Origin: a virus
DNA: 20,538 nt
Virus record (IMG/VR): IMGVR_UViG_3300037246_000278
Span: 1 to 20,538 of that record
Direction: 5' to 3' (one strand)
Part shown: positions 4,628-20,273 of the stretch, piece after piece
How positions within the stretch are numbered: position 1 is the first letter of the stretch
Layout of the letters: the number at the start of each line of letters is the position of its first letter
Translations under genes and position numbers: made by a program
The notes under the pieces: model-generated
Database searches by the model: none
Seen by the model: the letters and a program-made list of their open reading frames with translations, nothing else
Told to the model about the DNA's origin: nothing

Positions 4628-6082
4628 TTACACTCCTTTGAATAATACAAAGTTGTTAGCAGCTTGAGTTACTAAACATCTTTCTGAAAGGAAGTTTACT
4701 TCCATCGCATCAAGATCACTAGTAAACGCACCACCAGCAGAACCTGTTAACCAAGATTTCATTCTTCTATCATCACCTTGAGACGCTCTATATCTTACGT
4801 GTAAGAAAGGTCTACGGATGTTAGTTCCTAAAATTTGATCATAAACAGTTGTAGTACCAGCTGGGATTAATACTCCTTCAATAGAAGCAGGACCAGTCAT
4901 ACCACCACGCGTTGAAGCATCGTTTAAGTATTTCCAATCTGTTTTATAAAAGTCATAAGAACCTCTTCTGAAACCGCTAAAACCTAAGTTTAAAGCCATT
5001 TCTTCTGAGTTTTCAAATAATCCAAAAGCAGTACCACCTGCAGCTCCTGAAGAAATGCTAGCAAGCATATCATCAAACGCCAAAGCAGTAGCTCTATCTA
5101 AGAATAACATGTTTTCTTCAATAGCACCCTGAGTATCTAAGTTTCTAAGGATGTCATCAAAATCAGCAATACCCGTAGCTGGAGCAAATCCAACTTGTAC
5201 ATTACCTCTATCTTCAATAGAAGCAAATAAACCTTGAGTACCAATACCTGTTCCAGCTGCAGCAACTGCAGAACCTGGAGCAGCTATCTCACCTTCTACA
5301 CACATCATTTCTAAGTAGTCCTCAAATCTAAGTCTAGTTTCAGACTCAGCTTTTAAGTACCAAAGGTATCCACCAGTTCCATCTTCTGTAGCAACTTCTA
5401 CCCAACCAATTTGAGCCATATCTGAACCATTAACAACATACTTGTTTCTGATTATAATAGGGTTATTAGAGAATTGAGTAAATGAAGGATCAACACTAAT
5501 GTATTGAGTTCCTGTTACAGCACCAGGAGCACCTGGAGCATTAGGAGTAACGGATCCTTTTCCATATTCTGAACCATAAACGAAAACTTTTACGTTTCCA
5601 ACAATACCAGCAGCAGCTAAAGTTGCAGCAGTATAAGGTTCAACAGTTAAAACAAATGTTAAAGTGTTAGAAGCTGTTACTAAACATTTTACTTCGTTAC
5701 CGAAATCATCCATTACTACAATAGTAGATCTTGGAGATACAACGTTTTGAATAGTTCCAACTGCGCCTGGGTTTACATTAATTGTATTACCAGCACCTGT
5801 TTGTGTACAGTCATCATATGCAATATGTAATCTATTTTGTTCAGACCAGATTACTTGGTCACTTGTCATAGGTAGTTCAGCTCCAACCATTCTTAAGAAT
5901 CCAGATAAGGTTCTGTTACCATATCTTTCAACTTCAGCTTCATAAATCTCAGGTAAATACTGCTGTGCAAAATCTGCAAATGTAGCAGCAACACCAGGAT
6001 CTGTCCACTGTAAATAGTTTGAATTTAGAACTTCCTGTACTTGACTTGGTATAATACTACCAAATTGTGGGTTTAAAGCCAT
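4628..6082 (-). CDS. Major capsid protein
   Basis: A 484-aa protein of typical length for an HK97-fold capsid subunit, located after terminase, portal and a scaffold-like gene. The N-terminal part is helical (QEVLNSNYLQWTDPGVAATF, residues 17-36; then FAQQYLPEIYEAEVERYGNR). It continues with GAELPMTSDQVIWSEQNRLH. This N-terminus matches what I remember of capsid proteins in marine phages of this type. The middle is Gly/Ala/Val-rich beta structure. The gene appears richer in G/C than its neighbours (28 of 60 at 5221-5280 against 16 of 60 at 11641-11700 in terL), which fits a highly expressed protein. It starts 11 bases after the scaffold gene stop without a Shine-Dalgarno and is followed by a hairpin. 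It is the most probable client of the phage chaperonin, by inference. Confidence 0.85.
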   Translation of the reverse strand: MALNPQFGSIIPSQVQEVLNSNYLQWTDPGVAATFADFAQQYLPEIYEAEVERYGNRTLSGFLRMVGAELPMTSDQVIWSEQNRLHIAYDDCTQTGAGNTINVNPGAVGTIQNVVSPRSTIVVMDDFGNEVKCLVTASNTLTFVLTVEPYTAATLAAAGIVGNVKVFVYGSEYGKGSVTPNAPGAPGAVTGTQYISVDPSFTQFSNNPIIIRNKYVVNGSDMAQIGWVEVATEDGTGGYLWYLKAESETRLRFEDYLEMMCVEGEIAAPGSAVAAAGTGIGTQGLFASIEDRGNVQVGFAPATGIADFDDILRNLDTQGAIEENMLFLDRATALAFDDMLASISSGAAGGTAFGLFENSEEMALNLGFSGFRRGSYDFYKTDWKYLNDASTRGGMTGPASIEGVLIPAGTTTVYDQILGTNIRRPFLHVRYRASQGDDRRMKSWLTGSAGGAFTSDLDAMEVNFLSERCLVTQAANNFVLFKGV

Positions 6083-7355: not shown

Positions 7356-9755
7356 TTAAATAACTGGTTGATTTATAAAATTTGGATCATCTTCAAAGTT
7401 TTTTGGCATCTCATTGTTTTGACGTTGAGATATCATTTGACTTTGTTGACTACCAGCTATTCTTGTTCTGTTGTCTTTACGATTTTCAATTTCTTGTTCT
7501 CTCGTTGTTTCTCTTTGTGTTTTCATTTGCTCTAATTGCATCTGATAATTAAATTCTTCAGCCATTAATTCACGCTTTATTGCAGCCTCAGTTTGCATTC
7601 TTTGAATTTCAAATTGAGATTTAGCTTCTTCTAAATTAACTTTTTCCTGAGTTAAAGCTTGTTGTTTAAGTACTTCTGATTCAGCTGCTTTTTCTGCCGC
7701 TTGAGAATTAGCGTTAGCTTGTTGCTGATTCATTTCCATTTGCATTTGTCTATCATGCTGTATTTTACGTCTACGTTTTTGTTTTAACATTTGATTTGCT
7801 AATTTTAAATTACGTATTTGACGAACTTCAATTGCGTCTTCTAAATCAATACCACCGCTAGATAAAGCAACTTGAATGTTTTCTTCTAATCTTTGTCTTT
7901 CTTCTTCATCTGGTTCTAAATCTAAATAAATACCAAAGTCATGTAGATTAATTTCTTGTAAACCATCTAGTGTAGCAGTGTTAAAAGCTGTTATACTGTT
8001 TTTTAAAGCATTAGCAGTTAAAGGATAATCTAACATATCATTAACTTTTTTAGATATATTTTCACACATTCTTAGTGTTAAAAATAAACTAGCATTGTTT
8101 ATATGTTTAGTAGCAATATTAGATGCTTGAGCTGCAATTTTTTGTAATCCAACTAATGTATCTTTATCAGCTAAACTTCCATCTCTTGCTTCATTTAATC
8201 CGGTCACATCTCTTATCATTTGTAAATAATAATTATATGTTTGAATTAAATTTTGTACTTTAGCTTGACCTGAGCCACTAGCTAGTTCTTGTACTGGAAT
8301 TTTTCCTCTATTTATGTCACCATCTTGAGTAAGTGATCTACCAACTACAGAACCAGTTTGGAAATACATGTTTAAAGCTTCGGCTGGATTATAATTTGTA
8401 CCATTACCAAGATCAACCTCAGCTAAACCATCCATATCTAAAAACACACCATCTGGCACCATTCTAGCTATAACTTGTTGTAGTTTTAAATGAGTTATTT
8501 GAATCATATCAGCAAATCCAGTAATTCTACCTACTATAGAATTAATTCTTCCTTTATACATTCTAGGAGCACATAATGCGTAATTCATTTCTACCTTAGT
8601 AGTATCAGCAAATGGTCTTGTCATGTTTTCTGCCATTTCCCATTTAAGCATTATATCGGTACCTAATATTTTAACTCCTTTATACAACACCTCTATTGTT
8701 CTTCCAACTCTTTCAAACATTTCGCTTTCAGGTGGATTAAAAGTGTCTGGCTTTTCTATAGCTTTTACCAAACCTTGTTCAGTTTCTTTTATTTTAAATA
8801 CTTGATCACTATACGTTTTATATTCAAAATACATTACAGGTATAGTGTTTTGATCCCATGGACCATTACCATAACCATACATATAACTTCTATTACCTTG
8901 AGATTGTTGTATTTTTTCTAATGTAGCATTATCTAAAGCTGGAAATTGTTTAGCTATTTCAGGAAGAGTTACGGCTTTTAATTCACCTATATAATATAAA
9001 TCTTCAAAATTAGGATCTTCTGTGTAAGAATAAACTAACATTGCTGGATCAACATAATCTACAGTAATACCATTAGAAGTATTAAAATCAGTTTTAACTG
9101 CTCCTATTCCACAAGTAACTAAATCATAATTAACTCTACGTCTTGTTAAATCCCATTTATTATAATCTAATATTTGATTTATAACTTCCTCTTCAGCAAT
9201 TTCTACAGACTGTTTATAAGATAACTGCATATGAAGTTCTAATTCTTCTGGAGTTTGAGGCAGTTGCTCTTCTGGTATAGTAGTATTAAATATTTCAGTT
9301 CCTAATTGAGCAGTAATTTTCTTCATAGTATCTCTAGCAAAAATATCTTGTGCTAAACTCTCTGCGTAATTAGTTCTTTTTTGAACCGCTCCTGGATCTT
9401 GAGCGTAAGCATTTACATCATAATCTTTGTTAGATATACCATTAGCTAATATATCTACAAATTTACTAATTATAGGAACTGGTTTCCAGTCTAAATTAAG
9501 ATAAGATAAATCTCCGTTAATAGATAGTTCATCTTTATATTTTTGAGTAGGTTGTTCTCCTCTAGCATATAATCTTAATCTATTATAATTATTCCAAGTA
9601 GTCATATACCTGTTACCGTTAGTTCTACCTAACATAAACCATTCTTGTTCTATAGCTTGAGCAACTTGCGTACCATATTCAAGAGATGATTTTTCAGCGT
9701 CACTAACCACTTGGCTAGGGAAAATACTACTACCGTTACTGTATATACTTTTCAT
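7356..9755 (-). CDS. Portal protein
   Basis: A 799-aa protein immediately after the large terminase (no intergenic base). Portals form the dodecameric DNA channel at one capsid vertex and dock the terminase. The N-terminus has YNRLRLYARGEQPTQKYKD (57-75), then LNLDWKPVPIISKFVDILAN (86-105). In the second half RDVTGLNEARDGSLADKDTL precedes VGLQKIAAQASNIATKHI. These patterns match my memory of the large portals of crAss-like and related phages. The last 160 residues or so are a Gln/Glu/Met/Arg-rich coiled-coil-like tail (RRRKIQHDRQMQMEMNQQQA and onward), ending in NFINQPVI. At 799 aa it is longer than many podophage portals (about 500-725 aa). The start has no Shine-Dalgarno. Confidence 0.85.
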   Translation of the reverse strand: MKSIYSNGSSIFPSQVVSDAEKSSLEYGTQVAQAIEQEWFMLGRTNGNRYMTTWNNYNRLRLYARGEQPTQKYKDELSINGDLSYLNLDWKPVPIISKFVDILANGISNKDYDVNAYAQDPGAVQKRTNYAESLAQDIFARDTMKKITAQLGTEIFNTTIPEEQLPQTPEELELHMQLSYKQSVEIAEEEVINQILDYNKWDLTRRRVNYDLVTCGIGAVKTDFNTSNGITVDYVDPAMLVYSYTEDPNFEDLYYIGELKAVTLPEIAKQFPALDNATLEKIQQSQGNRSYMYGYGNGPWDQNTIPVMYFEYKTYSDQVFKIKETEQGLVKAIEKPDTFNPPESEMFERVGRTIEVLYKGVKILGTDIMLKWEMAENMTRPFADTTKVEMNYALCAPRMYKGRINSIVGRITGFADMIQITHLKLQQVIARMVPDGVFLDMDGLAEVDLGNGTNYNPAEALNMYFQTGSVVGRSLTQDGDINRGKIPVQELASGSGQAKVQNLIQTYNYYLQMIRDVTGLNEARDGSLADKDTLVGLQKIAAQASNIATKHINNASLFLTLRMCENISKKVNDMLDYPLTANALKNSITAFNTATLDGLQEINLHDFGIYLDLEPDEEERQRLEENIQVALSSGGIDLEDAIEVRQIRNLKLANQMLKQKRRRKIQHDRQMQMEMNQQQANANSQAAEKAAESEVLKQQALTQEKVNLEEAKSQFEIQRMQTEAAIKRELMAEEFNYQMQLEQMKTQRETTREQEIENRKDNRTRIAGSQQSQMISQRQNNEMPKNFEDDPNFINQPVI

Positions 9756-11972
9756 TTAATCTATAATTTTTGATAAGTGACCTTTGTTATCATATCTTTT
9801 AATTCCTAAATCATAATTTTGTCTTATTAATTTAGGAACAGGTCTATATTTATTTTTATTACAAGCCATAATAGCAAGTCCTGAACTAATAGAAGCATCA
9901 TGTGTAGTTCTATTGTTTATATTAAATTTAGCCCAATCTTCTAATGTTCTTTGAAAATATATATCTCCGTAGCTAAGATCTTCTAAAAGACCAACTCGCT
10001 CTTCAATATAACTTTCTATTGCTGCAGCGTGCGCTTGTTTTATATCTTCACTAGAATTAGGTATTCCACCTATTTCTCTCTCTGTTATTGATAATTTATT
10101 ATATATTTTATCCGGTCTATTCATTGCAAAACCTCTATATCCTCTTCTTTTAAAATGATATAATAATCTAGGTTTATTATTTTCCGCAAGTATTGGCATA
10201 CCATAAAATATACAAGCCATTAACACATCTTCAAAAAATATCTCTGCTGTTTGAGGTCTAGCTATGTATTCTAAAAAGAAATGATTAGGAGGAATATCTT
10301 CCATGCTAAACTTAGTTAAACCATGTAATGAACCATTAGATCCTCTACCATCTACTGTTCCAGATATATCATAACTATCACATCCAAAAGCTCCTAAAGT
10401 TTCATTACCAGGATATTTTTTACCTAATTTTTTTATAATATTGTTTTGTAATCTTCTAGGTGGAACCCATGAAATATAAAATCTTCCATTTTTATTTGGT
10501 ACAAACAATACTTCAGTATCTTTTATTCCACCAACCCATTGAAATGAACCTTGAGTTACTACATTAGTGTTTTTAATATCCGCGTTCCAATCAATTTGTT
10601 GATAAATCTTAGTTAAATTAAATAAAGAGTTTTTAGATTCATCTCTAAAAGCGTGTTTAGTTGTACGTGGGAATTGTCTATAAAATTCATTCAACGCATC
10701 TTGATCTTCACTTAATCCTTCTACTTCATTTTTCCAATAATCTAAAACTCCTATTTTAATTTTTTGACCATGGGGATCTTCATCGGGAGTTTTTGGTGTG
10801 TCAAATACAGGTATTCCATGAGAATTAATGTATCCTTCGTAATTCCATTCCATAGGTATGAACAAAGAATATAATCCTGAGCGAGTCTGTCCATTGGCGT
10901 TTCTTTTAGTAACATCTGAGCTTTCATATAGTTTTTTAAAATTTCCACCACCTTTGTCTAATGCGTTTGAAGTTGAACCCATCATGCATTTTCCAATAAT
11001 TCTAGATCCTAATCTTAAACATGTTTTAGTAACTCTCCAATTGTTTAAAATATTATTAGGTCTTTCCCATTTACCTGATTCATCATGTACTAATAATTTT
11101 AATTTTTCACCATCATAACTATTATCTCCAGTATTTTTCCAATCAATAGTTGTATCTAATCCTTGTAGTTCTTCAGCTACTTCTCCTGTTATTATTTTTC
11201 TTCTAGTGAATTTAGACGCGGGTACTCTATACGCTAATTCTGTTTTAGGTCGATCCATACCATCTTGAATCGGTTTAAAGAAAAAAGGATAGTTAACTGA
11301 AATAGGAACTACCTTATCTGTAAACATTGTTTTTGCATCGGGTCCAGTTTTAGATAATATTCCATATCTTGAGTCACTTGATATAGTAGCTAAGTTAACT
11401 ACTTCTCCTGATGCCATAAAAGAAAAACCAGATCTACGATTTTTAAGATAACACATACCGTAACATCTGTTATCTGCTTTACACGCTTCCCAAAATATAA
11501 AAAATAATCTATTTGCTTCTCTAAAATCCGGTGGTCCTACATCAATTTTAGACCATTGTAAATACATGTAATGTGTTCCTGTTAGATAAATAGGTTTTTT
11601 ATTATTATAAAACCAAAAACCTTCTTCACGTTTAATAAACTCTTCATCAATAAAATCATACCATTTTTCTTTGAAATCTTCTGGATATTTATCCCATTCA
11701 AAAACACTTTTAATTTTTTTAAGAACTTTAGGTAATGGAGTTCTTTGCCATTTATTATTTTCAAACTTATGAATATCCTTATATGGTTTAGGTAATGCAA
11801 TTTTTAAACCTTGTATTTCATAAACCTCTTTAATTTGTCCAGTTTTAGATATAACAACCATATCATGTTCTTCGTTATATCCATATTCCCACTTCTTGTA
11901 TTTATTATTTCTTGCAAGTATTTTAGGTTTTATGTAGTTTTTTAAAACTTTATATAAATCTTGACTATACAT
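9756..11972 (-). CDS. terL: Terminase large subunit (ATPase-nuclease packaging motor)
   Basis: A 738-aa protein with both terminase domains. ATPase: Walker A-like KNRRSGFSF (177-185), Walker B LLVHDE (293-298) with the catalytic Glu298, and a coupling-motif-like MMGSTSNA (330-337). Nuclease: first acidic motif FGCDSYD (Asp532), a central AENN (596-599), and a C-terminal HDASISSGLA (Asp692). These fit the RNase H-like nuclease of large terminases. It drives DNA into the prohead and cuts the concatemer, acting at the portal vertex. The ATG overlaps the stop of the 92-aa gene by one base (TAATG). It is the only gene here with a good Shine-Dalgarno-like sequence, which lies inside the coding end of that gene. 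No small terminase is identifiable, though the 92-aa neighbour is a candidate by position. Confidence 0.92.
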   Translation of the reverse strand: MYSQDLYKVLKNYIKPKILARNNKYKKWEYGYNEEHDMVVISKTGQIKEVYEIQGLKIALPKPYKDIHKFENNKWQRTPLPKVLKKIKSVFEWDKYPEDFKEKWYDFIDEEFIKREEGFWFYNNKKPIYLTGTHYMYLQWSKIDVGPPDFREANRLFFIFWEACKADNRCYGMCYLKNRRSGFSFMASGEVVNLATISSDSRYGILSKTGPDAKTMFTDKVVPISVNYPFFFKPIQDGMDRPKTELAYRVPASKFTRRKIITGEVAEELQGLDTTIDWKNTGDNSYDGEKLKLLVHDESGKWERPNNILNNWRVTKTCLRLGSRIIGKCMMGSTSNALDKGGGNFKKLYESSDVTKRNANGQTRSGLYSLFIPMEWNYEGYINSHGIPVFDTPKTPDEDPHGQKIKIGVLDYWKNEVEGLSEDQDALNEFYRQFPRTTKHAFRDESKNSLFNLTKIYQQIDWNADIKNTNVVTQGSFQWVGGIKDTEVLFVPNKNGRFYISWVPPRRLQNNIIKKLGKKYPGNETLGAFGCDSYDISGTVDGRGSNGSLHGLTKFSMEDIPPNHFFLEYIARPQTAEIFFEDVLMACIFYGMPILAENNKPRLLYHFKRRGYRGFAMNRPDKIYNKLSITEREIGGIPNSSEDIKQAHAAAIESYIEERVGLLEDLSYGDIYFQRTLEDWAKFNINNRTTHDASISSGLAIMACNKNKYRPVPKLIRQNYDLGIKRYDNKGHLSKIID

Positions 11973-12250
11973 TACTTAGATCTCCTTTCTGCAAAACCTT
12001 TAAATTTAGATTCTTTTTTTTCTTCTACTTTAGGTTTATTTTCTAATAAATTTCTTTCTTCTTCAATTCTATTTAAAATTTCAAAAGCATCAAATATAGC
12101 TAATTTTTTTGTAGCTGCAGCGTTTTTAAGTCTGTCTGCGGAAATATCTGGTCCAAAATCTATAATTGGTTCTTTAGCAACTTTGATTAACTCTTTTACT
12201 GCTACTTGTCCAGCTTGGATTATATTCTTCTTCGTTTCCTTTATACTCAT
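11972..12250 (-). CDS. Small helical protein upstream of terL, unknown (possible small terminase)
   Basis: A 92-aa, highly charged and mostly helical protein. It contains KNIIQAGQVAVKELIKVAKE (8-27), then GPDISADRLKNAAATKKLAI and FDAFEILNRIEEERNLL. The C-terminus is Lys/Glu-rich and basic (KGFAERRSK). Similar small proteins sit next to terL in marine phages as I recall, without a defined function. Position makes a small terminase possible, but no helix-turn-helix is clear. Its first 77 bases overlap the end of the 208-aa gene in another frame, which is long for this compact genome. Its stop overlaps the terminase ATG by one base, suggesting coupled translation. Confidence 0.6.
   Translation of the reverse strand: MSIKETKKNIIQAGQVAVKELIKVAKEPIIDFGPDISADRLKNAAATKKLAIFDAFEILNRIEEERNLLENKPKVEEKKESKFKGFAERRSK
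11981..11988 (-). promoter_or_regulatory. Shine-Dalgarno-like site before the terminase start
   Basis: The transcript-sense AAAGGAGA, with AGGAG 9 bases before the ATG, is the only strong Shine-Dalgarno match I found before any start in the window. It is also the Glu-Arg-Arg coding end of the 92-aa gene, so it may be coincidental. Confidence 0.4.
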
Positions 12251-12800
12251 ATTTTATAACTATATCATTTGATTTCATACAATAAAGTCGTTCATTATTT
12301 ATAACAAACTCCCATTCAGCACCTGGTTTAAAACCTATCTTGTCACCTGGGGTGATTTTAGATGCTTCTAATGTATTATTACCTATTTTTAGTATACCAA
12401 TACATTTTTGTTCTTTACTAGTGCTTAGATTATTGTCGTCTTTTATAGGTTTTACAAAACATCTATCACCAAAAGATATCCATTTATTTTTATTTTTGTA
12501 TAAATAAACTTGATCTAATCCAACAAAATATAAGTTATCTTTAAAATAAGATTTACTATTATTTTGTTTACCTTTCATATTGTAGAATCTTCTAAAAATA
12601 TTTTGATGAACTACGATAATATCTCCTTTTTTTATTGGTGTATTAACACTAATTGGGGTTTCAATTACTTTAGCAAATCTATTAACAAACTTCCAAGATT
12701 CAATTTTAGTATTTAAAATTAAATTTTTTTCACCTATTTTTTTATCGTTAGCATATCTTTCCCCTAAAGGTTCTACAATAAACTCGTACAAGCTTTTCAT
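12174..12800 (-). CDS. Tandem GroES-like (Cpn10-like) protein, candidate double-domain co-chaperonin
   Basis: This 208-aa protein reads as two consecutive Cpn10-type barrels. First half (about 5-101): FIVEPLGERY matches the GroES start (x-x-RPLGDRV); ILNTKIESWKFVNRFAKVIE sits where the mobile loop and following strand lie; IKKGDIIVVHQNIFRR matches the V-x-x-GD-x-V-x-F region; LYFVGLDQVYLY matches the closing strand. Second half (about 107-186): ISFGDRCFVKPI, then CIGILKIGN, ITPGDKIGFKPGAEWEF and LYCMKSNDIVIKYE, again in GroES order. Neither half has the canonical GG-hydrophobic mobile-loop tripeptide. Tandem Cpn10 proteins are known in chloroplasts (Cpn20). The last 23 residues run past the barrel and overlap the 92-aa gene. 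Start overlaps the previous stop (TAATG). The co-chaperonin role is inference; it could instead be a structural protein using the same fold. Confidence 0.65.
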   Translation of the reverse strand: MKSLYEFIVEPLGERYANDKKIGEKNLILNTKIESWKFVNRFAKVIETPISVNTPIKKGDIIVVHQNIFRRFYNMKGKQNNSKSYFKDNLYFVGLDQVYLYKNKNKWISFGDRCFVKPIKDDNNLSTSKEQKCIGILKIGNNTLEASKITPGDKIGFKPGAEWEFVINNERLYCMKSNDIVIKYEYKGNEEEYNPSWTSSSKRVNQSC

Positions 12801-13319: not shown

Positions 13320-13775
13320 TTACTTTCTAAATAGTTTTGTTGCCTTTTCTGTTGTTCGTCCACCGAAATAGGCTAAAACGACCGCCATCATGACCTTCTC
13401 AAAAGTATCGTTCCAAGTACTATTAATATGAAATGGTACACTTTCTACACTATCAAGTATACCTGCAAAAGAAAATACAACAATACACCATACTAAAACT
13501 AATGGACGTACATTTTTAGACATCCAAGAATCCGACATAGAATCTGCTTTCCATCTTGAAGTTATAGATTCTATTTCTTTATTCTGTTGTTCGTATATTA
13601 ATTGTTGTAGTTTTATTTTATCATCTAATGACGCATCTGATTTAGTTATTTCAGCTATTGCTTCTTTTGGGGATGTTACACCTTGTAATACATTTCCTAA
13701 TGTAGGATTAATTACTGAAGCAGCACCAAATAAAAGTTGCCCCACCGTAGTGTCTTTAAATTGTTTCTTTGCCAT
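13320..13775 (-). CDS. Holin, 3TM / GTA-holin-like family
   Basis: A 151-aa protein. The N-terminal 85 residues are soluble and helical (DKIKLQQLIYEQQNKEIESI, near 52-71), followed by SRWKADSMSDSWMSKNVRP (73-91). The stretch PLVLVWCIVVFSFAGI (91-106) is a clear membrane segment, and VMMAVVLAYFGGR (128-140) is a second; GRTTEKATKLFRK closes the protein. The series E-x-x-S-R-W-x-A-D, S-D-S-W, N-x-R-P-L and a terminal F-G-G-R-T-x-E-K is the pattern of the 3TM holin family (PF11351, holin for gene-transfer release) as I know it. Holins make the inner-membrane lesion that triggers lysis. The gene directly follows the HExxH gene with no gap. The assignment is by motif and topology, not by search. 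Confidence 0.75.
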   Translation of the reverse strand: MAKKQFKDTTVGQLLFGAASVINPTLGNVLQGVTSPKEAIAEITKSDASLDDKIKLQQLIYEQQNKEIESITSRWKADSMSDSWMSKNVRPLVLVWCIVVFSFAGILDSVESVPFHINSTWNDTFEKVMMAVVLAYFGGRTTEKATKLFRK

Positions 13776-14123
13776 TTAATATTTTTCGTAAGGATCTGTT
13801 TTTGTATAAGCTTCTTTTTCCCAAGGTAAATTAGGATTACCCTCGTCCATTTCACTTCTTTTCCAGCACTTTCCTTTCCAGTAAACGCAGTCATCATCAT
13901 AATCTAAATCACCTCTTTTAATTTGATCTATATGTACTTTTTCATGATCTACTATACTTTCTCTTTCTTCTGGATCTTTTATATCTTGTGATATTAATAC
14001 CGTACCGTTTTTGTTTCCTTTACCTAAACAACCCTCCTCTAAATCAGCATGATAAATAGGTGTGTTATCAATTTGTATAGGTGATTTAATACTAAAACCT
14101 TTTTTAATATATTTTTTAATCAT
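13776..14123 (-). CDS. Small HExxH metallopeptidase-like protein
   Basis: A 115-aa protein with the zinc-peptidase motif HEKVH (60-64) inside ERESIVDHEKVHIDQIKRGD (53-72). A conserved-looking WEKEAY follows at 101-106, where Glu104 could be a third zinc ligand, about 40 residues after the motif. This is the layout of minimal gluzincin-like peptidases. TVLISQDIKDP (41-51) precedes the motif as an edge strand. There is no signal peptide. Homologous small HExxH proteins occur in marine phages as I recall. It lies immediately before the holin, so a lysis role (peptidoglycan peptide cleavage) is possible; processing of virion proteins is an alternative. The start overlaps the stop of the 51-aa gene by 4 bases (ATGA). 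Confidence 0.6.
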   Translation of the reverse strand: MIKKYIKKGFSIKSPIQIDNTPIYHADLEEGCLGKGNKNGTVLISQDIKDPEERESIVDHEKVHIDQIKRGDLDYDDDCVYWKGKCWKRSEMDEGNPNLPWEKEAYTKTDPYEKY

Positions 14124-17487: not shown

Positions 17488-18024
17488 TTATAAAGTTATT
17501 AATTTTTTTGGTAATGATTTTAAATTTGTTATATCATTAGAAGCGTTGTATGGTTGTAATTGTGTATTCATAGAAGCTGTTCTTTGTTGATTATTACCAT
17601 ATATAGAGTTAGCTGTATTAACAGCTTGAGGAACAAAATTTCTATTAGACGTGTTAAACTCGTTCATTTGTCCAGCGCCTGGAACGTAGGGATTACCACC
17701 AGCTACATTTGCTTGAATACCTTGTACTGGTCCCACTCCACTCCATGAAGAAGACGAGGTGTTATTAACATCTCTATTAGCACTTGCAGAGTTCGCTATT
17801 TGATCTGAAGTTCCAATTTGAGGTCCAGCAAAAGGATCTACTGGAAGATTAACACTTCCTGGCATAAACCCAAAATTTAATGGACTCTTGTCTCTTAAGT
17901 CTTGAATTCTTCTTTCATGAAGCTCAATATCCATATCAGTTCCTTTTTTACCTTTAGCAACTTTTTTCTTGAATCTATCTTCTATTCTGTTAATGCGTTT
18001 TTCTATTCTTTTAGATTTACTCAT
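17488..18024 (-). CDS. Low-complexity protein with an SPLN motif, unknown
   Basis: A 178-aa protein. Residues 1-45 form a basic, charged helix (SKSKRIEKRINRIEDRFKKK; then IELHERRIQDLRD), ending in the motif KSPLN at 46-50. Residues 50-178 are Asn/Ser/Gly/Pro/Gln-rich and probably disordered (for example ANRDVNNTSSSSWSGVGPV). There is no membrane segment or enzyme motif. The start overlaps the stop of the winged-helix-like gene by 4 bases (ATGA), so translation is probably coupled. The basic helix followed by a disordered tail would suit a nucleic-acid- or capsid-binding virion protein, which is inference. I recognise no family. Confidence 0.6.
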   Translation of the reverse strand: MSKSKRIEKRINRIEDRFKKKVAKGKKGTDMDIELHERRIQDLRDKSPLNFGFMPGSVNLPVDPFAGPQIGTSDQIANSASANRDVNNTSSSSWSGVGPVQGIQANVAGGNPYVPGAGQMNEFNTSNRNFVPQAVNTANSIYGNNQQRTASMNTQLQPYNASNDITNLKSLPKKLITL

Positions 18025-18467
18025 CTTTCTTTATCTTTATTTACATTATATATAGATGTTTGTAGCACTTTATCTATATAAGTATTACCTTTCATTATTT
18101 TATTTCTTCTTGTGCTTGTAGGTATATCTTCTTCACCTAACATTATTCGGTAAATTCTTTGTATTAATTGTTTACCTTTAAAAGAAACTTTGTATATGTT
18201 ATATTTTTGAGTTGTTCTATTTCTATGTCGCCATACCACAACCCAATCATTTTGTATTAATCTATTCCATCTACGGTTATCCCAACTATAAGAATACGTA
18301 CCCATTTTAAAATCATTAATATTAAATAAATTTATACAATCTAGATAAATTAATAACTCTAAATCCGCATCATTTAAATCGTTGTTTTTTGAAGCCCATC
18401 GGCGTATTATACGATAATGTTTTAACAGGTTTAAATCTTTAAGATCTCCTGCTTCTAACTTTTTCAT
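18021..18467 (-). CDS. Winged-helix-like small protein, possible DNA-binding regulator
   Basis: A 148-aa, basic protein. Residues 10-40 are helical (KDLNLLKHYRIIRRWASKNN), then DLNDADLELLIYLDCINLFN (36-55 approximately). Next come YSWDNRRWNRLIQNDWVVVW and RHRNRTTQKYNIYKVSFKGK, an order of helices followed by a beta wing and a terminal helix that resembles MarR-type winged-helix proteins. The C-terminus GEEDIPTSTRRNKIMKGNTY is basic. I recall close relatives in marine phages without a demonstrated function. It is translationally coupled to groES upstream and to the 178-aa gene downstream (4-base ATGA overlaps on both sides). A transcription regulator is possible; a DNA-packaging factor is an alternative. 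Confidence 0.6.
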   Translation of the reverse strand: MKKLEAGDLKDLNLLKHYRIIRRWASKNNDLNDADLELLIYLDCINLFNINDFKMGTYSYSWDNRRWNRLIQNDWVVVWRHRNRTTQKYNIYKVSFKGKQLIQRIYRIMLGEEDIPTSTRRNKIMKGNTYIDKVLQTSIYNVNKDKER

Positions 18468-18724
18468 AAAACAACGACCACATCCTGTAACTTAATTACT
18501 TGGTATGTGATATTCTCTAATTCCATATAATGACCATTGTGACGATCATAAAATATAATATCTTTTTCTTTTACACCTTCTACTTCGTGTCCCACGGAAA
18601 TTACTTCAGCTTCAATATATCTTATATCAGTTCTATCGTTTTTACTTAAAAGTAATCCTCCTTGAGACTCTGTTATATTTTCCTCAATTTTTTTTATTAT
18701 AAGATATCTACCTACTGCTTTCAT
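18464..18724 (-). CDS. groES: Co-chaperonin GroES (Cpn10), phage-encoded
   Basis: An 86-aa protein (bacterial GroES is usually 94-97 aa). The N-terminal strand GRYLIIKKI replaces the usual RPL-x-DR. The mobile loop ENITESQGGLLLSKNDRTD (15-33) keeps the GG-hydrophobic tripeptide: Gly22-Gly23-Leu24-Leu25-Leu26 corresponds to the IVL motif of E. coli that inserts into GroEL. Then AEVISVGHEVEG and VKEKDIIFYDRHNGHYMELE form the barrel, and YQVIKLQDVVVVL the closing strand. It caps the GroEL ring as a heptamer during folding. The first 17 bases overlap the end of groEL, so the two are co-translated. It follows groEL, the reverse of the bacterial order. The shorter length mostly reflects a trimmed N-terminus and trimmed loops. 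Confidence 0.85.
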   Translation of the reverse strand: MKAVGRYLIIKKIEENITESQGGLLLSKNDRTDIRYIEAEVISVGHEVEGVKEKDIIFYDRHNGHYMELENITYQVIKLQDVVVVL

Positions 18725-20249
18725 TTGTTCTAATATTATTAATTACACAATCAGTAGATAAAATAGTAACTGCTACAGAAGCCGCGTTGGTTAAAGCGCT
18801 TTTTGTTACCAGTAATGGATCAATAATACCTTCCTTAACCATATGTACCATATCTCCTGTAACCACGTTTAAACCTTTTCCTTCTGTTTCTAGTTCTATT
18901 GGATCTATACCAGCATTAACTAATATAGTGTTATAAGGAGCTTTTATAGCGTTGTATAAAATGTTTTCGCCTATATCACTTTGGTCTAATGTTTTTGAAG
19001 CGTTAAGTAAAGCAACACCACCACCAGCTACAACTCCTTCTTTAATAGCAGCTTTTGTAGCACAGATAGCATCTTCAATTCTATCTTGTTTCTCTTTAAG
19101 TTCAATATCAGAATTAGCACCTACTTTAACAATAGCTACTTTTGCGCTTAATCTAGCTAATCTAAGTTCTAATCCTATAACTTGATGAGGTTTTAATTTT
19201 TTAGTTAAATCTTTCTTAACTTTTTTAATAATTTTTTCAACTTCTTTTGAAATATCTTCAACTTGTATTATAGTTTGATCATTATTAGAAGTTGTTTTTA
19301 AGCATGTACCTAAATAATCTATTTCTATAGTATTTAAATCATCTCCTAAATCTTCGTTTATTATTTGAGAATTTGTTAACAATGATAAATCTTCTAGTAT
19401 TTCTTTTCTTCTTAATCCAAAAGCTGGAGGATCAACTACATTTACTTTTATATTACCTTTCATTTTATTCATAACAAGAGCAGATAAAACCGCAGGTTCT
19501 ACTTGTCCTATAATAAATAAAGCTTTATTGTTTTTTATAACATATTCTAACACGCTTTGAATTTGTCTAATAGAATCAATTTTAGAATCTACTATCATAA
19601 CTAGTGGGTTATGTAATTCACAAGTACCTTTATCTTTATTTGTTATAAAATTTTGATTTAACAAACCTTTATCATACTCTACACCTTCTACTGTTTCAAC
19701 TTTAGTTTCACCCTCAGCAGATGGTTCCATCATTACTACACCTGTATTACCTACTTCAGTAAAAGCTTGGGCAATTAAATTACCTAACTCTGAATCATTA
19801 TTAGTAGATATAGTAGCTATTTGTTCAATTTTATTTTTTACTGGAACTGACTTAGATGTTATATAACTTATAACTTTATCAACACCTTTTAGTATTCCAT
19901 TTTTAATATCTCTTACGTTAGTTTTATCTAACTTTTTATAGGCTTCATGTAATATAGCGTGTGCTAATACAGTTGCTGTTGTAGTTCCGTCTCCAGCTTC
20001 TTTAACTGTTTTACGTGCTGCTTCTTTTAATAAAGTTGCTCCTATGTTTTCTACGGGATCTAAAAGTACTATAGAATCTGCTACTGTTACACCGTCTTTG
20101 GTTATAACTGGATTACCATGTGCATCTTCTAAAATTACACATTTACCGCTAGCTCCTAATGTAGAGCTAACAGCATTTGTGAGTTTTTCTATACCTTTAA
20201 AAACCTGTTGTCTGGCTTCAATGCCAAAATTCAGATTTTTTACAATCAT
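18708..20249 (-). CDS. groEL: Chaperonin GroEL (Cpn60), phage-encoded
   Basis: A 513-aa group I chaperonin (about 540-548 aa in bacteria). Conserved: Asp52 in KDGV (51-54), GDGTTT (86-91, with catalytic Asp87 at the E. coli position), VVAGGGVALL (407-416), IEDAICATKAAIKEG with Asp393 (equivalent to E. coli Asp398), and IIDPLLVTKSALTNAASVAV with Asp477. Apical domain: KMKGNIKVNVVDPPAFGLRR. Differences: the nucleotide loop reads LGASGK (31-36) rather than LGPKGR. By eye, E. coli groove residues Tyr199, Tyr203 and Leu234 are Leu196, Asn200 and Gln231. The C-terminus ends INNIRTNESSR with no GGM repeats. It folds proteins in a tetradecameric ring with ATP. The leader is (TTTAA)4. It is complete and likely functional, presumably adapted to phage clients. 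Confidence 0.93.
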   Translation of the reverse strand: MIVKNLNFGIEARQQVFKGIEKLTNAVSSTLGASGKCVILEDAHGNPVITKDGVTVADSIVLLDPVENIGATLLKEAARKTVKEAGDGTTTATVLAHAILHEAYKKLDKTNVRDIKNGILKGVDKVISYITSKSVPVKNKIEQIATISTNNDSELGNLIAQAFTEVGNTGVVMMEPSAEGETKVETVEGVEYDKGLLNQNFITNKDKGTCELHNPLVMIVDSKIDSIRQIQSVLEYVIKNNKALFIIGQVEPAVLSALVMNKMKGNIKVNVVDPPAFGLRRKEILEDLSLLTNSQIINEDLGDDLNTIEIDYLGTCLKTTSNNDQTIIQVEDISKEVEKIIKKVKKDLTKKLKPHQVIGLELRLARLSAKVAIVKVGANSDIELKEKQDRIEDAICATKAAIKEGVVAGGGVALLNASKTLDQSDIGENILYNAIKAPYNTILVNAGIDPIELETEGKGLNVVTGDMVHMVKEGIIDPLLVTKSALTNAASVAVTILSTDCVINNIRTNESSR

Positions 20250-20253
20250 AATA

Positions 20254-20273
20254 TTTAATTTAATTTAATTTAA
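20254..20273. repeat. (TTTAA)4 repeat forming the gap before groEL
   Basis: Four perfect TTTAA units on the plus strand make up almost the whole gap between the stop of the upstream gene (20274-20276) and the groEL ATG at 20249. In transcript sense the leader is (TTAAA)-like, ending AAATATTATG, with no Shine-Dalgarno. Confidence 0.8.

Follow-up and report, generated by a model that had tools for sequence, protein, structure and literature searches.

How does a phage come to carry a groEL gene followed by groES, in the reverse of the bacterial order, and what might it do with the pair? The question is raised by a 20,538-base IMG/VR record of a marine virus, analysed over its whole length and referred to here as the window, at the right end of which the two genes lie. 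All the genes of the window that could be confidently identified by profile matches are on the minus strand, and transcription from right to left puts groEL first and groES second. The first-pass annotation had described a groEL-first pair with a 17-nt overlap, and both reading frames proved to be real, each matching its Pfam family:

18708-20249, minus strand: groEL (Cpn60, group I chaperonin), 513 aa; Pfam PF00118, E = 2.7e-56; phrog_5725 'chaperonin groEL', 5e-134
18464-18724, minus strand: groES (Cpn10 co-chaperonin), 86 aa; Pfam PF00166, E = 4e-8, residues 2-85; phrog_3188, 7e-12
18708-18724, minus strand: dual-coding overlap of 17 nt, comprising the last codons and stop of groEL and the groES start
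18021-18467, minus strand: 148-aa product of the cluster's third gene; phrog_17028, 8e-9

Judged from these matches, both chaperonin assignments are secure. The overlap, ATGAAAGCAGTAGGTAG, is read in two frames, as the end of GroEL (...NESSR*) and as the beginning of GroES (MKAVGR...).

Genomic context and host

Several virion structural protein genes accompany the pair in the window, and the following phage features were located:

9756-11972, minus strand: terminase large subunit (TerL), a phage-lineage marker; phrog_6681, 7e-163
7356-9755, minus strand: portal
4628-6082, minus strand: virion structural protein, 484 aa; phrog_13704 'virion structural protein', 3e-89
13320-14123, minus strand: holin region; phrog_3427, 3.5e-18

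By its position, the 4628-6082 product is the probable major capsid protein. A small, metallopeptidase-like protein with an HEKVH motif is encoded beside the holin, and the two likely form a lysis region. Related terminases among named phages come from viruses of Flavobacterium, Cellulophaga, Maribacter, and Tenacibaculum, which makes a bacterium of the Bacteroidota the very probable host of the window phage, itself a podovirus.

Gene order in phages and bacteria

Scanning IMG/VR with the window GroEL returned 281 stretches with relatives, of which 80, at 66-82% identity, were kept. In the window and these 80 relatives, groES directly follows groEL (81/81), with an overlap of 17 nt in 75 and 20 nt in six of them, always in the same frame. 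Because of this recurrence, the 17-nt overlap is far beyond chance, and a single-phage oddity or an assembly artefact is ruled out.

The same order extends to two further lineages. It is present in 79 of 81 contigs with relatives of the GroEL from Podoviridae sp. ctfjg026 (MW202828), where the spacing between groEL and groES ranges from -14 to +2095 nt, and in 14 of the 15 relatives of Elemovirus (Flavobacterium phages vB_FspP_elemoA-F), where the overlap is 1, 4, 17 or 20 nt and the remaining contig stops inside groEL; the two lineages together have 93 reversed contigs out of 96. Among 80 bacterial GroEL loci from a genome collection, groES comes first in 79 and was not detected in one, so that the reversed order occurs in none of the 79 bacterial loci having both genes. 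The order is thus a viral and not a bacterial trait, as had been suspected from the single locus, and it is an old family trait common to hundreds of related phages.

The accompanying claim that full-length phage GroEL genes are rare does not hold for this phage group, for which two IMG/VR scans returned 281 and 442 stretches with GroEL relatives. The pair itself is neither rare nor new, being shared by at least three phage lineages and already present in the deposited Elemovirus and ctfjg026 genomes, where, as far as we found, it has apparently gone unremarked. GroEL was reported in 2017 from 36 of 78 environmental genomes of marine relatives of Cellulophaga phage phi38:1 (PMC5332604), and GroEL together with GroES has been noted in Maribacter phage Panino (PMC11590407); our literature search, which covered few subscription papers, found no description of the reversed pair.

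Bacterial order is seen in Immutovirus, in Bacteroides phages DAC19 and SJC03, and in Callevirus, the last with an ORF between the genes. Several other arrangements were observed. In the ctfjg026 group (L099-L178), the two chaperonin genes are separated by up to 2.1 kb of extra genes, and six contigs of phages that do not belong to the main clade (L241-L244, L248, L271) have groES ~1.8 kb downstream of groEL, with a gene in between. One contig far from the main clade (L314) has a separate reversed pair that overlaps by 4 nt; its GroES, at 130 aa, contains a long insert. The crAss-like phages phi14:2 and cr108_1 were considered as further reversed pairs and rejected, their downstream ORFs having no Cpn10 match. 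The top phage match by tblastn, 'Acinetobacter phage MD-2021a' (L098, CAKLQH020000021.1), was also discarded; it carries a near-identical Acinetobacter haemolyticus groESL locus with housekeeping genes and is apparently a mis-deposited bacterial contig.

Origin of the reversed pair

In the GroES tree, all reversed-order phages except L314 fall in one clade (support 100/99), which also contains the long-branched Callevirus GroES. Since long-branched GroELs joined each other, a second GroEL tree was built without them; here the reversed-order phages form one clean clade (100/99), which is recovered with an SH-aLRT of 86 when all long branches are kept. The nearest GroELs outside this clade are those of Immutovirus and another viral contig, followed by bacteria. 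In both trees, the reversed-order phage clade lies outside bacteria and is nested in no bacterial lineage; the phylogeny, which had been proposed as a check on a viral origin of the order, revealed no reversed-order bacterial operon lineage containing both genes.

Within the clade, GroEL and GroES distances are correlated with r = 0.85, a value reached in none of 2000 permutations, and the two genes have therefore been together since the clade's origin. A TerL homolog is present in 38 of the 40 contigs tested, with identities of 79-91% in the closest group, then 71-73%, 64-67%, and 46-49%, and a homolog of the capsid-like gene (4628-6082) in all 37 contigs of 37. Because the same contigs share a terminase of stepwise decreasing identity and the capsid-like gene, the pair has been inherited with the phage backbone. 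In the IMG/VR contig of L139 (L413:236-3565), TerL carries an in-frame, intein-like insert that matches Hint and LAGLIDADG homing endonucleases.

The single clade in both trees, the co-divergence, and the shared terminase and capsid-like genes argue for a single origin in an old lineage of Bacteroidota podoviruses, in which the reversal most likely took place once; from the ancestor of that lineage, the groEL-then-groES order would have been passed on with the backbone. The earlier suggestion that the pair was rearranged in a viral lineage gains support from the viral character of the order and from the one clade in both trees. Gene order alone fails to separate a captured and reordered operon from two separate captures, and the data fit an ancient capture of the whole operon, reordered later, as well as they fit separate captures.

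A recent capture of a host operon, or bacterial DNA in the assembly, would fit the best solved-structure matches, which include an ancestral Bacteroidetes-group chaperonin, and the identity to the window GroEL of about 42% reached by bacterial GroELs. However, bacterial GroELs do not exceed about 43% identity, compared to the 66-82% of the 80 phage contigs, and the record also holds terminase, portal, and virion genes. With no bacterial locus of reversed order (0/79) and a clade outside bacteria in both trees, contamination or recent capture is ruled out by genomic context, the order census, and phylogeny, and we regard it as extremely improbable.

Comparison with individual relatives shows how far the arrangement is shared. 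Elemovirus resembles the window in its reversed, adjacent genes and in its homologous TerL (46-49%), GroEL, and GroES, but its reference phage has an overlap of 1 nt (its relatives, 1-20 nt), the module is on the strand opposite TerL, and its GroEL is about 38% identical to that of the window. In ctfjg026 (TerL 64% identical), groEL precedes groES on the TerL strand as in the window, whereas the genes are separated by a 4-nt gap and do not overlap, and its relatives often have genes between the two. Callevirus (Cellulophaga phages phi38:1, phi40:1, and Calle) likewise has a TerL homolog (about 35-38%), GroEL, and GroES; despite this relatedness, groES precedes groEL with a gene between them, and its GroES forms a very long branch. 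Reversion or a separate acquisition in Callevirus is possible.

Features of the phage GroEL and GroES

The window GroEL is about 40% identical to bacterial GroEL and has full-length Cpn60 homology, PF00118 covering protein residues 23-505 (profile positions 1-488 of 490). Mapping against E. coli GroEL shows that the ATPase residues D52, D87, and D393 (equivalent to E. coli D398) and the GDGTTT motif are kept, and active-site residues are kept across the clade. By these features, it is a typical group I protein and is predicted to form rings. Several apical substrate/GroES-binding residues are altered in the window GroEL; the equivalents of Y203 and L234 are changed in most clade members and mostly polar in the window's group. 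Inter-ring contact residues are not conserved in the window GroEL, with E434 deleted. The GGM C-terminal tail is missing in the window GroEL and its clade: it was found in 74 of 78 bacterial GroELs, whereas among 197 phage GroELs that precede a groES the single carrier, L196, is not a clade member.

The chaperonin of Pseudomonas phage EL (gp146) is, like that of the window, a phage-encoded GroEL homolog, but it is about 22% identical to GroEL, has no known GroES, and its ring dissociates with ATP (PMC7185714). The window GroEL is not of this EL/OBP type, given its full-length group I match and the adjacent groES. The altered inter-ring and apical residues, together with the ability of the phage EL GroEL to work without GroES (PMC7185714), would be consistent with a ring that holds phage proteins and prevents their aggregation without a closed cage, the co-chaperonins having other roles. 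We consider this improbable, since no GroES is known from EL-type phages while groES is always beside groEL here, and the phage GroES co-diverges with GroEL and keeps the hydrophobic tripeptide of its mobile loop.

This loop carries a GGLLL motif, with a hydrophobic tripeptide of the IVL kind, and a GGLLL/SGLIL-type motif is present in 186 of 190 relatives. The AF2 model of the window GroES has a pLDDT of 87 and matches GroES in Foldseek with an E-value of 8.6e-6 and a TM-score of 0.81, and T4 gp31 (1g31) with 1.5e-3. The segment of the roof hairpin is missing in the alignment of the window GroES, and no hairpin strands are seen in its AF2 model; nearly all clade members have a GroES of 83-91 aa without this segment. 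Loss of the roof was rejected as a phage-only hallmark, the segment being also absent from the GroES of a Helicobacter (L374) and of a member of the Nitrospirae (L385).

T4 gp31 is a GroES-fold phage lid without roof loops, like the window GroES, and folds a 56-kDa capsid protein (PMC6318259). It differs in having a longer mobile loop and in serving the host GroEL, whereas the window phage brings its own. The phage co-chaperonins might nonetheless mainly re-cap the host GroEL in the manner of gp31 (PMC6318259), the phage GroEL being accessory; many phages encode GroES alone (PMC7185714), and the second co-chaperonin described below is encoded apart from groEL, adjoining TerL. This alternative also seems unlikely, because GroEL active sites are intact throughout the clade and the joint divergence of GroEL and GroES fits a mutual rather than a host partnership.

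A predicted tandem co-chaperonin near the terminase

The first-pass annotation had missed a second co-chaperonin gene, located upstream of the terminase gene at a distance of about 200 nt:

12174-12800, minus strand: 208-aa second co-chaperonin with a predicted tandem (Cpn20-like) GroES fold; phrog_13932 'co-chaperonin GroES', 1e-22, residues 1-182

The AF2 model of the protein has a pLDDT of 78, with low values at residues 17-37, and its only solved-structure match below an E-value of 0.001 in Foldseek is the chloroplast Cpn20 7ekq_R (6.5e-6, 203 columns). The C-terminal half is GroES-like by profile comparison (hhalign, 1.5e-4); the N-terminal half is weakly GroES-like by sequence, and its assignment rests on the predicted fold. 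All of the 37 related phage contigs compared (37/37) carry the gene, invariably on the same strand as the terminase and 167-849 nt upstream. Elemovirus has it near TerL, annotated as 'chaperonin cpn10', ctfjg026 upstream of TerL, and Callevirus adjoining TerL. No convincing form was found in 296 Bacteroidota genomes, which yielded one marginal match with a broken frame.

Single-domain and tandem-domain co-chaperonins also occur within one system in chloroplasts and apicoplasts (Cpn10 and Cpn20), and chloroplast lids combine the two (PMC5780408). The fold match of the phage tandem protein to Cpn20 7ekq_R extends over nearly the full length, but the sequence identity is very low (12%). The reversed pair alone is a new member of a known set, and its combination with the predicted tandem co-chaperonin is a variant worth testing.

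Proposed function of the chaperonin system

Taken together, these features make it likely, in our assessment, that the phage encodes a self-contained group I chaperonin kit for its virion proteins, consisting of a GroEL ring, a GroES lid, and a tandem lid, with a single reversal of the gene order. The phage GroEL would form ATP-driven rings capped by the phage's own lid or lids, and the capped rings would fold or hold virion proteins, the major capsid protein being the likeliest client. By analogy with T4 gp31, the lost GGM tail and the lost lid roof may provide a larger or more open cage for these proteins, and the altered apical residues may confer a preference for the phage lids over the host GroES.

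A more elaborate version of this kit is a complete, independently evolving two-lid machine. In it, a Cpn10 without a roof and a tandem protein of the Cpn20 kind, perhaps combined in mixed rings, would close an enlarged cage suited to the capsid protein, as a viral counterpart of the chloroplast Cpn60/Cpn10/Cpn20 system. We put this forward tentatively, as rather doubtful; that mixed Cpn10/Cpn20 lids form in the phage as in chloroplasts is speculative. A tandem co-chaperonin beyond plastid lineages would be relevant to the symmetry mismatch between even-numbered lids and seven-fold rings.

For the phage lineage, the favored self-contained kit would mean that an entire chaperonin system can settle lastingly in phage genomes and come to define a lineage, and need not be a passing host-gene pick-up, distinguished by its own gene order, a trimmed GroEL tail, a roofless lid, and a second, tandem lid. 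The existence of cultured carriers (Elemovirus and Callevirus) makes the client proteins, and the reason for the phage's own lid pair, directly testable.

Overlaps and expression of the cluster

With the groES start inside the end of groEL, the 17-nt overlap may couple the translation of groES to that of groEL. Downstream, groES and the 148-aa gene share 4 nt (ATGA), the ATG of the latter overlapping the groES stop; the gene is conserved at ~148 aa, and its 4-nt overlap is kept in 75 of 77 relatives. The groEL-groES overlap could also be devoid of regulatory meaning and reflect genome compaction after a chance start codon, a serious alternative that we place somewhat below even chances. Its variable length in the wider clade (1, 4, 14, 17, and 20 nt) and, in the ctfjg026 group, the frequent separation of the two by other genes speak for compaction, whereas its restriction to 17 or 20 nt in an invariant frame in the window's group (81/81), and the overlap of the next gene with groES, speak against it.

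The invariant DCVIN codons just 5' of the groES start raised the possibility of a dedicated initiation signal, which was rejected. Codon entropy in this stretch is low but only ~9th lowest along groEL, so that it does not stand out within the gene. A scan for promoters and terminators gave no excess over shuffled sequences. Short AATTA-type tandem repeats are located directly 5' of the groEL start (20250-20272) and are also found in close relatives.
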